A DNA stretch of 64,000 bases, taken from contig JALHLU010000006.1 of NCBI GenBank assembly GCA_022844345.1, forward strand, positions 186,001 to 250,000, read 5' to 3'. This document shows positions 11,347 to 51,959 of the stretch, piece after piece. Source of the stretch: Hyphomonadaceae bacterium. Its GTDB lineage: Bacteria; Pseudomonadota; Alphaproteobacteria; Caulobacterales; Hyphomonadaceae. The notes under the pieces are model-generated. The model saw nothing but the letters and a program-made list of their open reading frames with translations. It ran no database searches and was not told the DNA's origin. The translations under genes and the position numbers were made by a program. Numbering within the stretch: the stretch's first letter is position 1; every line of letters begins with the position of its first letter.

Positions 11347-11469
11347 CCGCTCGTCCTGACGAAAGTCAGGACCCAGGGCCGACGTAAAACCATGCCCCGG
11401 CTTGTAGTTTCAAGTCCGTGCGTGGGTGCGCCGACATTCCTGGATGCCGACTTTCGTCAGCATGAGCGG
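11347..11469. repeat. Family B inverted-repeat element B1
   Basis: Begins CCGCTCGTCCTGACGAAAGT and ends with the inverted equivalent (CTTTCGTCAG, then CATGAGCGG). Each end is itself a hairpin, CCTGAC-GAAA-GTCAGG on the left. About 60 bases of weakly conserved core, including a CTTGTAG..TTCAAG segment, lie between. It sits just after lolA. Confidence 0.8.
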
Positions 11470-18393: not shown

Positions 18394-19053
18394 ATGAACA
18401 CGCGCGCGCTCACCCTTTTCTTCGCCATCGCCGCCATCGTGGCGATGTCCCACCTCGCCAACGAGTGGGTGAAGATGGAAGACCCCGGCGGCCTCGTCTG
18501 GAAGGCGGCGGGCATCGTCCTGCTCGGCCTCTTCGCGCTGGCCAAACGCTCGTGGATCGCCGGCGCGGGGCTGCTCTTCTGCGCGCTGGGCGACGTGCTG
18601 CTCGAGATCGTCTTCGTCTACGGCATGGCCGCCTTCGCCATCGGCCACCTTTTCTACATCGCCGCCTTCGTCGAATGGGGCCGCGTGCTAGGCTTCAACA
18701 AGCGCGACGTCCCCGTCGCTGTCCTTGTGGTGCTTGTCTCGATCGGCCTGCTGGTCTGGCTCCTGCCCGGCATGGGCGACCTTACCGGCCCCGCCATCGC
18801 CTATCAGGTCATCATCACCGTCATGGTCTGCTCCGCCTTCGTGGTGAAAGCCCCCGTGCTGGCCCGCCTCGGCGCCGTGCTCTTCATGCTGTCCGACACG
18901 CTGATCGCCATCGGCAAGTTCACCGACATCGACCCGCCCATCGGCTCGGTCTGGATCACCTACGCCGCCGCCCAGATCCTCATCGCCTGGGGCATGAGCC
19001 ACATCGCTCCCTACCGGGCGCGCAAGAAGCGGCAGGCGGCTGCTGCTGAATAG
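18394..19053 (+). CDS. Lysoplasmalogenase / YhhN family membrane protein
   Basis: This 219-residue polytopic protein has about eight hydrophobic segments. The YhhN signature is visible as GAGLLFCALGDVLLEI, GMAAFAIGHLFYIAAF and the later MLSDTLIAIGKF. Family members include mammalian lysoplasmalogenase (TMEM86), which hydrolyses the vinyl-ether bond of lysoplasmalogens; the bacterial substrate is not established. The gene lies between the A2 repeat and the B2 repeat. Confidence 0.85.
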   Translation: MNTRALTLFFAIAAIVAMSHLANEWVKMEDPGGLVWKAAGIVLLGLFALAKRSWIAGAGLLFCALGDVLLEIVFVYGMAAFAIGHLFYIAAFVEWGRVLGFNKRDVPVAVLVVLVSIGLLVWLLPGMGDLTGPAIAYQVIITVMVCSAFVVKAPVLARLGAVLFMLSDTLIAIGKFTDIDPPIGSVWITYAAAQILIAWGMSHIAPYRARKKRQAAAAE

Positions 19054-19072
19054 CGCACCGGTCCACCTTGCT

Positions 19073-19195
19073 CCGCTCATCCTGACGAAAGTCAGGATCC
19101 AGGATCGGTGGAAGCGCCCTGAACAGACCTGAAGCTTCAAGCCGGAACAAGGTTCGCAGTCAGCCCTGGATCCTGACTTTCGTCAGGATGAGCGG
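19073..19195. repeat. Family B inverted-repeat element B2
   Basis: CCGCTCATCCTGACGAAAGT at the left and CTTTCGTCAGGATGAGCGG at the right, core with GAAGCTTCAA. It ends 33 bases before the GIY-YIG nuclease gene. Confidence 0.9.
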
Positions 19196-19228
19196 AGCGG
19201 TAAGCTGGCGGCGGTTTGGGGGACTTCC

Positions 19229-19534
19229 ATGGGCACACCGCGTCCATTCTGGACATACATCGTCGCCAGCGGAAAGAACGGCACGATCTACATCGGCCAC
19301 ACCGACAATCTGATCGAGCGGGTCTGGCAGCATCAGACAAAGGCGTTCAAAGGCTTCACCGCCAAGTACAACTGCAATCAGCTCGTATGGTGCGAAGCAT
19401 TCAACACGCGCGATGAAGCGTTCGCGCGCGAGCGTCAGCTCAAGCTCTGGCGGCGCGCATGGAAGATCGCACTGATCGAAAAGACCAATCCCGAGTGGCA
19501 GGATCTGTCGGTCGGCATGAACATGTGGGCTTGA
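19229..19534 (+). CDS. GIY-YIG nuclease family protein, flanked by family B repeats
   Basis: This 101-residue protein is a single GIY-YIG domain of the YhbQ/UPF0213 kind. TYIVASGKNGTIYIGHTDNL supplies the paired tyrosines, ERVWQHQ the catalytic Arg region, and DEAFARERQLKLWRRAWK the metal-binding Glu. The family cuts one DNA strand through the GIY-YIG fold, but roles of the single-domain members are mostly unknown. The ATG is preceded by GGGGGAC. Its most striking feature is context: B2 ends 33 bases upstream and B3 begins 15 bases downstream, so the gene plus two repeats looks like one cassette. Confidence 0.9.
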   Translation: MGTPRPFWTYIVASGKNGTIYIGHTDNLIERVWQHQTKAFKGFTAKYNCNQLVWCEAFNTRDEAFARERQLKLWRRAWKIALIEKTNPEWQDLSVGMNMWA

Positions 19535-19549
19535 AGGCGCAACCCTCTC

Positions 19550-19671
19550 CCGCTCGTCCTGACGAAAGTCAGGACCCAGGGCTGACGCTGAGGCTTGCCC
19601 AGACTTGCAGCTTCAAGACCGTTCAAGGCTCACCACGTTTCCTGGATCCTGACTGTCGTCAGGATGAGCGG
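19550..19671. repeat. Family B inverted-repeat element B3
   Basis: CCGCTCGTCCTGACGAAAGT at the left and GTCAGGATGAGCGG at the right. It starts 15 bases after the GIY-YIG stop codon. Confidence 0.9.
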
Positions 19672-19693
19672 AACAAGGTGAGCCGCTCTTGGC

Positions 19694-20368
19694 CTACCCC
19701 CGCGCCCCGAACAGCGCGGACCCCACCCGCACGCTCGTCGCGCCAAACATCACCGCCGTCTCGTAGTCCGCGCTCATCCCCATCGACAGCATCGCGACGC
19801 CATTGCGCTTCGCGATCTTCGCCAGCAGCGCAAAGTGCGGACCGGCAGGTTCATCCGCCGGCGGAATGCACATCAGCCCTTCGACCACAAACCTGAACTC
19901 GCCACGCACCTTGGCGATGAACGCATCGGCGTCCAGCGGCGCGACGCCCGCCTTCTGCTCTTCCTCGCCCGTATTGACCTGAACATACAGGCGCGGAACA
20001 CGGCCCGCCTTGGCGCACGCATCCGCCAGCGCCCCCGCCAGCTTCTCGCGGTCCAGCGTCTCGATCACATCGAACAGCTCAACCGCTTCCTTCGCCTTGT
20101 TCGACTGCAGGGGCCCGATCAGCCGCAACTCCAGATCCGGATAAGCCGCCCGCCGTCCAGCCCAGCGCGCTTCAGCCTCCTGCACACGGTTCTCGCCATA
20201 GACGCGCTGCCCGGCGGCCAGCATCGCCTCGATGCGCTCCTCCGGCTGCACCTTCGACACGGCGACCAGCTCTACCGATGCGGGATCCCGTCCCGCGCCC
20301 TTGGCGGCGGCCGCGATGCGCGCAAGAACATCAGCCCGCGCCGCCTGGATTTCCTGAAACACGTCCAT
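19694..20368 (-). CDS. yggS: YggS family pyridoxal-phosphate-binding protein (PLPBP)
   Basis: This 224-residue single-domain alanine-racemase-like barrel binds PLP on the Lys of [11 protein letters not shown] (K39). Further signatures are [41 protein letters not shown] and [12 protein letters not shown]. The protein buffers cellular vitamin B6 and has no enzymatic activity in tested homologues. The start codon overlaps that of the divergent thiE-like gene: both ATGs are read from one CATG. Confidence 0.93.
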
Positions 20369-26415: not shown

Positions 26416-26537
26416 CCGCTCATCCTGACGAAAGTCAGGATCCAGGGCTGACCTCAGACCTTGTCCCGGCTTGCAGCTTCAATCCCACGCCTGCCGCCCA
26501 ACCGTTTCTGGGTCCTGACTTTCGTCAGGACGAGCGG
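26416..26537. repeat. Family B inverted-repeat element B4
   Basis: CCGCTCATCCTGACGAAAGT at the left and CTTTCGTCAGGACGAGCGG at the right. It lies between leuS and lptE and leaves one reading frame open through its whole length. Confidence 0.9.
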
Positions 26538-30866: not shown

Positions 30867-30889
30867 GCTCACAGCCGCCACCAGATCCT

Positions 30890-31010
30890 CGCTCGTCCTG
30901 ACGAAAGTCACGACCCAGGGCTGCCGTTGAACCTTGCCCCGCCTTGGAGCTTCAATCCCGCGCAAGTCTCGATACCGTTCCGGGATCCTGACTTTCGTCA
31001 GGATGAGCGG
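30890..31010. repeat. Family B inverted-repeat element B5
   Basis: CGCTCGTCCTGACGAAAGTC at the left, with one change inside (CACGACCC), and CTTTCGTCAGGATGAGCGG at the right. It lies directly beside C2 in the rsmG-mnmG gap. Confidence 0.85.
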
Positions 31011-34572: not shown

Positions 34573-34605
34573 TCCGCTCATCCTGACTGGCGTCAGGACG
34601 AGCGG
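34573..34605. repeat. Family B short form B6
   Basis: CCGCTCATCCTGAC-TGGC-GTCAGGACGAGCGG: the two ends of the family B element joined directly as one hairpin, without the core. The loop differs from the usual GAAA. Confidence 0.85.
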
Positions 34606-40075: not shown

Positions 40076-40209
40076 CCGCTCGTCCTGACGAAAGTCAGGA
40101 CCCAGGAACGGTCCTTCCACGACAACTGGCTTTGGGCTCCAAGCGAAGCAACAAGCCGGAACAAGGCGCGCTGCCGGCCCTGGATCCGGACTTTCGTCAG
40201 GATGAGCGG
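40076..40209. repeat. Family B inverted-repeat element B7
   Basis: CCGCTCGTCCTGACGAAAGT at the left and CTTTCGTCAGGATGAGCGG at the right, core slightly longer than in other copies. It fills the hemH-hemE gap. Confidence 0.9.
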
Positions 40210-45237: not shown

Positions 45238-45265
45238 GTCTCGACGTTCAGTGAACGAGGAGACA

Positions 45266-45388
45266 GACCCCCACCTGTCCGCCCCCTAAGAACGGGGCGG
45301 GACCCTGTTGGGCGAGCTTACCCAATTTTGAAGGACGGTAGTCCAAGCAGGTTCCGCCCCGTTCTTAGGGGGCGGACAGGTGGGGGTC
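45266..45388. repeat. Family A long inverted-repeat element A4
   Basis: 39-base arms (45266-45304 with 45350-45388), core of 45 bases. The right end lies four bases from the DUF559 stop codon. Confidence 0.92.
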
Positions 45389-45392
45389 TGGT

Positions 45393-45791
45393 TCAGCGTG
45401 TCTTGGTGTGGGCGGAGGCTTCCTGAGCAAGCAGCCTCACCTGCACTTCGCCATGGATGGTCGAGATCACGCCGTCCCGGTTTTCGTCGATTTCCTGAAC
45501 GCTGAAGCGCAGAACGTCGAAACCGCGTTCACGCATGCGATTATCCCTGACCGCGTCGCGCGCGGCGTCGTGAGTGTGACCGTCGACTTCAATGACGAGT
45601 TTCAGGGGCACGCAGCAATAGTCGGCCAAGTAGCCGGCAATGGGATGCTGTTTGCGGAAGGGTGCGCCCATCTGGTTGGAGCGGAGGTGTGGCCAGAGGC
45701 GGCGTTCGGTTCTGGATGTCTTGCGGCGGAGTTCGCGGGCGAAAGCGGTTTGTTCGGGCGTGCGCGCGTTTGGCCAGTCTTCGTCTGACAT
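45393..45791 (-). CDS. DUF559-domain (Vsr-like) endonuclease, flanked by family A repeats
   Basis: This 132-residue protein is a single DUF559 domain of the PD-(D/E)XK/Vsr superfamily: RELRRKTSRTERRLWPHLRS at the N-terminus, then FRKQHPIAGYLADYCC with the catalytic Asp and LKLVIEVDGHTHD with the Glu, then RMRERGFDVLRFSVQEI. The family is presumed to nick or cut DNA; cellular roles are unknown. The ATG at 45791 has GGGGAG seven bases upstream; a TTG at 45806 is less likely. Complete repeat A4 lies four bases downstream and half repeat A5 84 bases upstream. The pair interrupts the dnaQ-secB neighbourhood. Confidence 0.9.
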   Translation of the reverse strand: MSDEDWPNARTPEQTAFARELRRKTSRTERRLWPHLRSNQMGAPFRKQHPIAGYLADYCCVPLKLVIEVDGHTHDAARDAVRDNRMRERGFDVLRFSVQEIDENRDGVISTIHGEVQVRLLAQEASAHTKTR

Positions 45792-45874
45792 GCTTGCGCT
45801 CCCCAACGTCCAACGGAAGCATCATGTGCGTGGGCGGGTTTGTGCGCAACATCGGCGTTGTCGTTGAGGAGACA

Positions 45875-45945
45875 GACCCCCACCTGTCCGCCCCCTAAGA
45901 ACGGGGCGGGACCCTGTTGGACCAACTTACCAATAAGTGACGGGT
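45875..45945. repeat. Family A half element A5
   Basis: Left arm (45875-45913) in the same orientation as A4-left, preceded in both by GAGGAGACA, followed by about 30 bases resembling the core (ACTTACC). The right arm is missing; the secB 3' end begins 20 bases further on. Confidence 0.88.
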
Positions 45946-45964
45946 TGCCCGCGGGCAGGACCGA

Positions 45965-46468
45965 TCAGCCCGCTGCCTTCGCCGCCGCTTCCGCTTCGGC
46001 GCGTTGGCGTTGCTGGCGGTAGAGGCCGACGAAGTCGATGGGGTCGATCATCAGGGGCGGGTGGCCGCCTTCGCGGGTGATGTCGGCGATGATGCGGCGC
46101 GCGAAGGGGAAGAGCAGGCGCGGGCACTCGATCAGCAGCATCGGCTCGGCGTCTTCGCGGCGGGCGTCCTGCAGCTGGACCACGCCGCCATAGACGAGCT
46201 CGACGATGAAGACGACCGTGTCCTGGCGCTTGGCGCGGGCCGACAGTTTCAGCTCGACGGAGAAGATGCCCTGTTCGGGCGGGCCGGGCTCCACGCGCAC
46301 ATCGATGCCAAGCTCGATCTCGGGCGCTGTGTTGGTCTGGCCCTGGGCGGCGAAAAGGCCCGGGTTCTCGAATGACAGGTCCTTAACGTACTGCGCCAGC
46401 ATGCGGATAAGCGGCGGCCCGGCGGTTTCCTGGGGCTGGGCCTGATCCGGGGCGGCGGTGTCAGTCAT
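45965..46468 (-). CDS. secB: Protein-export chaperone SecB
   Basis: This 167-residue tetrameric chaperone keeps preproteins unfolded for SecA. Signatures are IRMLAQYVKDLSFENPG, the central VELKLSARAKRQDTVVFIVELVYGGVVQL, and LLIECPRLLFPFARRIIADITREGGHPPLMIDPIDFVGLY. Acidic and Ala/Pro-rich extensions at both ends are usual in alphaproteobacteria. It is divergent from timA, as in related genomes. Confidence 0.96.
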   Translation of the reverse strand: MTDTAAPDQAQPQETAGPPLIRMLAQYVKDLSFENPGLFAAQGQTNTAPEIELGIDVRVEPGPPEQGIFSVELKLSARAKRQDTVVFIVELVYGGVVQLQDARREDAEPMLLIECPRLLFPFARRIIADITREGGHPPLMIDPIDFVGLYRQQRQRAEAEAAAKAAG

Positions 46469-49584: not shown

Positions 49585-49706
49585 CCGTTCGTCCTGACGC
49601 AAGTCAGGACCCATGGCCGACTGCGAGCCTTGTCCTGGCTTGGGGCTTCAAGGCTGTTCGTGTTGCGCGAGCGTTCCTGGATCCTGACTTGCGTCAGGAT
49701 GAGCGG
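49585..49706. repeat. Family B inverted-repeat element B8
   Basis: CCGTTCGTCCTGACGCAAGT at the left, ACTTGCGTCAGGATGAGCGG at the right. Both ends have the loop GCAA in place of GAAA, so the two ends changed together. Confidence 0.9.
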
Positions 49707-51837: not shown

Positions 51838-51959
51838 CCGCTCATCCTGACGAAAGTCAGGATCCAGGGCTGCCGGCAAGTCCTGGCAAGGCTTGAAGCT
51901 TCAAGCCCGTTCAAGACGCCTGACCGTTCCTGGGTCCTGACTTTCGTCAGGACGAGCGG
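51838..51959. repeat. Family B inverted-repeat element B9
   Basis: CCGCTCATCCTGACGAAAGT at the left, ACTTTCGTCAGGACGAGCGG at the right, core with GCTTGAAGCTTCAAG. It lies in the leader of hisF, 52 bases before its start. Confidence 0.92.

Follow-up and report, generated by a model that had tools for sequence, protein, structure and literature searches.

A small GIY-YIG nuclease gene and its flanking REP-like hairpins: a candidate nuclease–repeat cassette in a Hyphomonadaceae genome

The pairing of a GIY-YIG nuclease with genomic repeats has probably been published before for Neisseria, where the Ssn enzymes are the reported case. These proteins are said to be site-specific single-strand nucleases with a role in transformation. 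A literature search covering titles and the openings of abstracts found no work joining GIY-YIG proteins with REPs. On the side of the repeats, the described counterpart is the CGTC-1 class, which is abundant in Alphaproteobacteria and consists of an 8-bp stem usually starting with AT, a 4-nt loop and a CCA tail (Di Nocera 2013, PMC3733652). The survey allows CGTC, TGTC or CCTC as the tag, describes mostly HH dimers and assigns the Neisseria dRS3 repeats to this class. It reports no associated transposase gene, and CGTC-1 REPs are presented as apparently having no dedicated transposase (PMC3733652).

The window analyzed here is a stretch of 64,000 nucleotides from a Hyphomonadaceae bacterium. 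On its forward strand, at 19229–19534, it carries a gene for a GIY-YIG nuclease of 101 amino acids (Pfam GIY-YIG, E=2.6e-15), which stands between two palindromic repeats of a family named B. Element 1 (19073–19196, reverse strand) has inverted hairpin arms at 19073–19103 and 19165–19195 around an asymmetric centre, while element 2 (19550–19672, forward strand) is inverted relative to it. About 32 bases separate the reading frame from element 1 and about 15 from element 2. The inverted B elements make the terminal inverted repeats of the cassette, 132 bp each at 19064–19195 and 19549–19680, which are about 80% identical. The inserted stretch fills a 640-bp gap (19054–19693) between convergent genes, whose stop codons lie at 19051–19053 and 19694–19696.

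Elsewhere in the window, B occurs without the gene, as six more complete elements and one single arm. The complete elements are located at 11347–11469, 26416–26537, 30889–31010, 49585–49706 and 51838–51959 on the forward strand and, with a longer centre, at 40076–40209 on the reverse strand; the single arm, at 34581, occupies 34574–34605 on the reverse strand. Both points of the preliminary description, complete copies on either side of the nuclease gene and solitary copies elsewhere, therefore stand. A gene-bearing form thus has terminal inverted repeats in common with a gene-free form, as in pairs of an insertion sequence and a MITE.

Each B element is an inverted dimer, with two arms about 90 bases apart, tails inward and tags outward. 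The arms are hairpins whose stem has 8 bp and whose loop has 4 nt and is mostly GNNA; among 48 arms from 24 complete elements the tag is GCTC in 46, GTTC in one and CCTC in one, with a CCA tail in 43. Because of the GCTC tag, B falls outside the CGTC REPs, strictly defined. The first stem pair is A-T in 25 arms and G-C in 23, the second is T-A in all 48, and the third is C-G in 42 and G-C in the other six; the elements were picked by their core, which biases every stem position except position 1. The split between A-T and G-C at that position indicates that the stem is constrained. The predicted fold of element 1 as single-stranded DNA has an energy of −51.7 kcal/mol, compared with a mean of −18.8 for 200 shuffles. 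The 18-base arm core matches the window 17 times (at most 3 mismatches) and 100 shuffles not once; in the whole genome of 4.19 Mb, it has 60 matches at 35 sites (at most 2 mismatches), against none for a reversed control.

Purifying selection acts on the nuclease gene, which shows a dN/dS of 0.06 in comparison with the homologue in the genome G096, with synonymous sites near saturation. The AlphaFold2 model of the protein has a mean pLDDT of 93.5, and a fold search places GIY-YIG relatives on top, with the UPF0213 protein 1zg2 as the best PDB match, followed by Slx1. The genome holds three Pfam GIY-YIG matches, and B lies on both sides, by position, only at the window gene. A second small GIY-YIG gene (L001, 1340–1735) has a long upstream inverted repeat apparently unrelated to B and lies near what looks by eye like a tRNA gene.

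Another small nuclease in the window was described at the outset as the core of a parallel cassette. The arrangement is indeed present, with a DUF559 gene at 45444–45752 between copies of the A repeat at 45264–45388 and 45873–45997. Moreover, each of the three DUF559 matches in the genome has a repeat common to both flanks, of different kinds, which fits the suggested parallel between two unrelated small nucleases, each with its own repeat. In L160 and L161, which hold the other two DUF559 matches, both flanks carry hairpins of another kind.

Comparison with relatives suggests that the cassette is a mobile unit. In six genus relatives (L134–L139), the two convergent genes nearly touch, with little or no spacer at the cassette site, and in two others (L141, L142) another short spacer is found. 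In G096, the site is empty and the closest nuclease (82% identity) lies at another locus; homology between the two cassettes starts at 19131, inside the left B element, and stops at 19671, where the right arm ends. Since the site is empty in relatives, the G096 cassette lies elsewhere and the homology spans B to B, the gene and its B repeats behave as a single insertion. The empty-site comparison proposed earlier thus came out in favour of the cassette, nearly absent from six genus relatives and with a related one elsewhere in G096. In the genome G092 (L140), a different repeat lies here together with a gene that looks by eye like a flavin monooxygenase, so that the site accepts unrelated insertions.

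B also inserts without the gene. For instance, the element at 26416 is missing in all eight relatives looked at, and the one at 11347–11469 is absent from the aligned G092 site. Between the window genome and G092, which have roughly 70–91% DNA identity in aligned pieces, at least two B elements are confined to the former and at least two to the latter. Target duplication, sought at six sites in these two genomes with strongly diverged junctions, yielded one possible 5-base repeat at one site, which is unconvincing. At one pair of matching sites (C6:177689 in the window's own genome and C23:429569 in G092), B is present in both with the centre apparently reversed, by independent insertion or by inversion.

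The number of repeats and the presence of a cognate nuclease are loosely coupled, because their counts do not match in three relatives. G092 has 29 B arms and a single homologue, 49% identical, which stands beside a different hairpin. B-like core matches number 18 in G091, whose homologues, among the matches listed, reach at most 45% identity. G096 has the 82%-identical nuclease yet 12 core matches, in a count whose pattern misses loops ending in C, such as those at G096's own gene.

The association of such nucleases with hairpins extends far beyond this genome. It was followed in named genomes at the best 80 of 215 relatives, representing 80 distinct proteins, with many metagenome bins among the sources. 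By record titles, these loci belong to Alpha-, Beta-, Gamma- and Deltaproteobacteria, Nitrospirae/Thermodesulfovibrionia and Chloroflexota. With a hairpin defined by a stem of at least 7, a loop of 4 and a distance of at most 300 bp from the gene, a hairpin accompanies 79 of the 80 GIY-YIG genes on at least one side and 51 of them on both, compared with 154 and 9, respectively, of 736 control ORFs from the same loci, a contrast that partly reflects intergenic space because the control flanks hold more coding DNA. Hairpin density amounts to 4.24 per kb at the GIY-YIG genes versus 0.26 in the control, and some of the hairpins counted, such as the one at L125, are not REP-like. Chance bracketing of GIY-YIG genes was rejected on these frequencies. 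Additionally, 29 relatives, eight of them at the same places as named loci, have 74 hairpins in 14.1 kb near the gene versus 10 in 64.4 kb far from it. The 165 distinct hairpins, oriented by their loops, carry the tags CGTC (74), GCTC (46) and TGTC (8), and 151 have the CCA tail.

Similar arrangements are found in further collections. Under a looser rule (loops of 3–7), and in a count that has no background rate, 48 of 60 further matches have a hairpin near the gene and 28 have one on both sides, several with five-base loops; five of the 60 are near copies (at least 90% identical) of loci already used. In a plasmid collection, 35 records contain a match, and eight of the nine examined have CGTC hairpins within 350 bases, a count made without a control. 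A chromosome-sized record of Neisseria gonorrhoeae holds a homologue 49% identical to the window protein, which we take to be Ssn and which has CGTC-tagged hairpins on its flanks. CGTC hairpins within the same distance also accompany homologues in Azospirillum, Sinorhizobium, Neorhizobium, Rhizobium, Shinella, Aeromonas and Photobacterium, the four rhizobia having five-base loops. The rhizobial homologues with R73 (L225, L229, L230, L231) pair with CGTC hairpins of a 9-bp stem and a five-base loop, perhaps a second class of nuclease and hairpin. A Planktothrix plasmid homologue (L228) has no CGTC hairpins within 350 bases; it sits between an MmeI-type enzyme and DISARM DrmA. Taken as a whole, these genome comparisons strongly support a general pairing of nuclease and palindrome that recurs in distant bacteria.

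The pairing also has a specific form, in which residues of the protein vary with bases of the hairpin. Each protein column was compared with features of the nearest hairpin, starting from 110 loci (the 80 named and 30 further matches). Fifteen were left out because of a stop in the frame or because no hairpin combined a loop ending in A or G with a CC-containing tail; these include L088, L095, L106 and L107, where the nearest loop ends in some other base. Eight of the remaining 95 were the same place twice, which left 87 distinct loci, 64 of them with a clear tag, and hardly changed the proportions. The last loop base is A in 39 of 40 loci with E or D at residue 81 and G in 32 of 33 with R, K or N there. 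Stem position 6 is G in all 54 loci with E or D at residue 73 and a base other than G in 27 of 29 with A or K. Among the 64 loci with a clear tag, K at residue 69 goes with CGTC in 34 of 34 and R with GCTC in 28 of 30.

The links were also weighed against common descent. After average-product correction, residue 81 and the last loop base rank first of 909 pairs. The tree shows at least 17 changes of the last loop base and at least 13 at stem position 6; the tag changes only three times, and its link with residue 69 is therefore not independent of descent. In supported independent pairs, residue 81 shifts along with the hairpin base in about 3.6 of 4 and residue 73 in about 3.8 of 4, never the opposite way, with a median p of 0.125, in tests that cannot reach p 0.05 because the pairs are so few. 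In the AlphaFold2 model, residues 65, 69 and 73 lie one turn apart in the helix 61–73, and residue 81 lies in the next helix. The window protein has R69, which fits its GCTC tag. Its L73 is unusual, as is the T at stem position 5 that accompanies it, and its A81 is uninformative.

The rules were fixed before 60 unused loci were fetched. With the original hairpin filter, 19 of these were usable, and the rules held in 14 of 17 for residue 81, 13 of 14 for residue 73 and 2 of 2 for residue 69. With a relaxed filter, chosen after the strict results had been seen, the 22 usable loci gave 20 of 22, 20 of 21 and 7 of 7. The loci with no qualifying hairpin numbered 36 under the strict filter and 33 under the relaxed one, and five under each were at least 90% identical to training rows. 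The unused loci may not all be independent, since L164 and L165, like L217 and L218, resemble each other in residues and hairpin, and some nearest hairpins are not REP-like (L167 and L169 in the strict set, L163 in the relaxed set). Four plasmid-collection loci with four-base loops likewise combine K69 with CGTC and K73 with C at stem position 6, each in 4 of 4; at their nearest hairpins, R or N at residue 81 goes with a loop G in 3 of 3, and the fourth, from Neisseria, has Q81, which is outside the rule. Because the rules mostly held in unused loci, the GIY-YIG nuclease very probably reads its flanking hairpin.

The explanation that we favour, with moderate confidence, is that of a nuclease–REP cassette, in which the GIY-YIG protein recognises the B-arm hairpin as its own site and probably nicks beside it, B–gene–B and solitary B being the nuclease-bearing and nuclease-free forms of one family. 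In single-stranded DNA, a B arm would form a hairpin with a GCTC tag, an 8-bp stem, a mostly GNNA loop and a CCA tail. The protein would recognise this hairpin by direct contact. During replication or DNA uptake, such nicking could lead host repair to copy the repeats, and in this way the nuclease would spread them. From homology with the Neisseria enzyme, we infer that the single-stranded hairpin is what would be cut.

The same arrangement could arise in another, unlikely way, if the nuclease were a homing-type parasite that cuts existing REP dimers and has its gene copied in by gene conversion, with something else spreading the repeats. In 28 of the 80 loci, the gene sits as a spacer between its nearest hairpins, which are oriented towards each other as in a REP dimer; this speaks for homing, and the solitary repeats that persist in G092 and G091 without a close nuclease are also in line with it. 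However, the six relatives whose convergent genes adjoin have no B dimer at the window site that could have served as a target. Homing also needs an alternative spreader, and a profile search of the genome for a Y1/RAYT transposase (PF01797) gave no matches at E≤0.001. A RAYT origin of B was rejected on the same search.

Control of the uptake of DNA, or of foreign DNA, is an equally doubtful reading, according to which the nuclease cuts incoming single strands that contain its site, and the flanking repeats are kept for that purpose or for control of the gene by itself. The CGTC-tagged repeats flanking the Neisseria homologue and the purifying selection on the nuclease gene are consistent with it, as is the role in transformation with which Ssn is credited. 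Taken alone, however, uptake control leaves unexplained the insertion of solitary B and of the cassette, as well as the fact that the nearest homologue, in G096, has another hairpin next to it.

Whether the nuclease also spreads the repeats was approached through their distribution. Besides the bracket, 10 of 33 B sites lie within 60 kb of the gene, versus 0.95 expected; other repeats crowd there too, namely A (7 of 27) and the CGTCGAACCACGAGG repeat (4 of 28). Gene-centred dispersal of B was dropped, as its crowding is not significantly above that of the A and CGTCGAACCACGAGG repeats (Fisher p 0.31). All three palindromic families are crowded on C6 of the window's own genome, at about 159–264 kb. 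This crowding would suit a passive neighbourhood, a repeat-rich region flanking small genes by chance, but such an account is very improbable in view of the 51 of 80 GIY-YIG genes bracketed against 9 of 736 controls and of the residue–base covariation.

Across 105 genomes of the family, the 69 with a homologue have a mean hairpin count of 4.1 and the 36 without one 0.72 (p 0.05, uncorrected for descent). When genera g3 and g8 were excluded afterwards, for their 9-bp stems that the hairpin pattern misses, the means became 6.6 and 0.89 (p 0.004, uncorrected for descent). The correlation of hairpin count with gene number in the 105 genomes is weak (rho 0.16, p 0.10, likewise uncorrected). The preliminary description had proposed that palindromes are spread by the nucleases paired with them and had called for B to be counted genome-wide and mapped to GIY-YIG genes. 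The pairing turned out to be general, and the mapping of the 35 B sites gave a bracket at one of the three GIY-YIG matches; the part on spreading fared less well, as the crowding of B there is not special to B, and G092 and G091 have B-like elements without a close nuclease.

More tentatively, the dedicated enzymes that CGTC-class REPs seem to lack may, across bacteria, be small GIY-YIG nucleases, each specific for its own hairpin. Recognition would follow a simple code in which residue 69 corresponds to the tag, residue 73 to stem position 6 and residue 81 to the last loop base, formed by one helix face together with residue 81, and nuclease and hairpin would co-diversify as a transposase-free mobile pair. 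A residue–base code that predicts hairpins in unused loci makes recognition testable in vitro and offers small, predictable readers of hairpins.

Compared with known systems, the window protein has the same fold as the UPF0213/Slx1-like GIY-YIG proteins, and we know of no pairing of the solved members with genomic repeats. The cassette resembles RAYT/REPIN systems in its single gene flanked by palindromes and in the copies dispersed in the genome. It differs in the enzyme, which is a Y1 (HUH) transposase there and a GIY-YIG protein here, in a genome with no Y1 match; this suggests that REP-like repeats can live with non-transposase nucleases. Ssn is connected to it through the 49%-identical Neisseria homologue, which adjoins CGTC-tagged repeat sites. 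With the CGTC-1 REPs of the 2013 survey, the hairpins of the relatives and the B arms share the 8-bp stem, the 4-nt loop, the CCA tail and the frequent occurrence as dimers, whereas the B arms differ in their GCTC tag (46 of 48), in tags that point outward and in the GIY-YIG gene beside such repeats. A widespread class apparently without a transposase in that description now has a candidate cognate nuclease beside it, and this may be the answer to the question of what drives these long-orphaned bacterial repeats.
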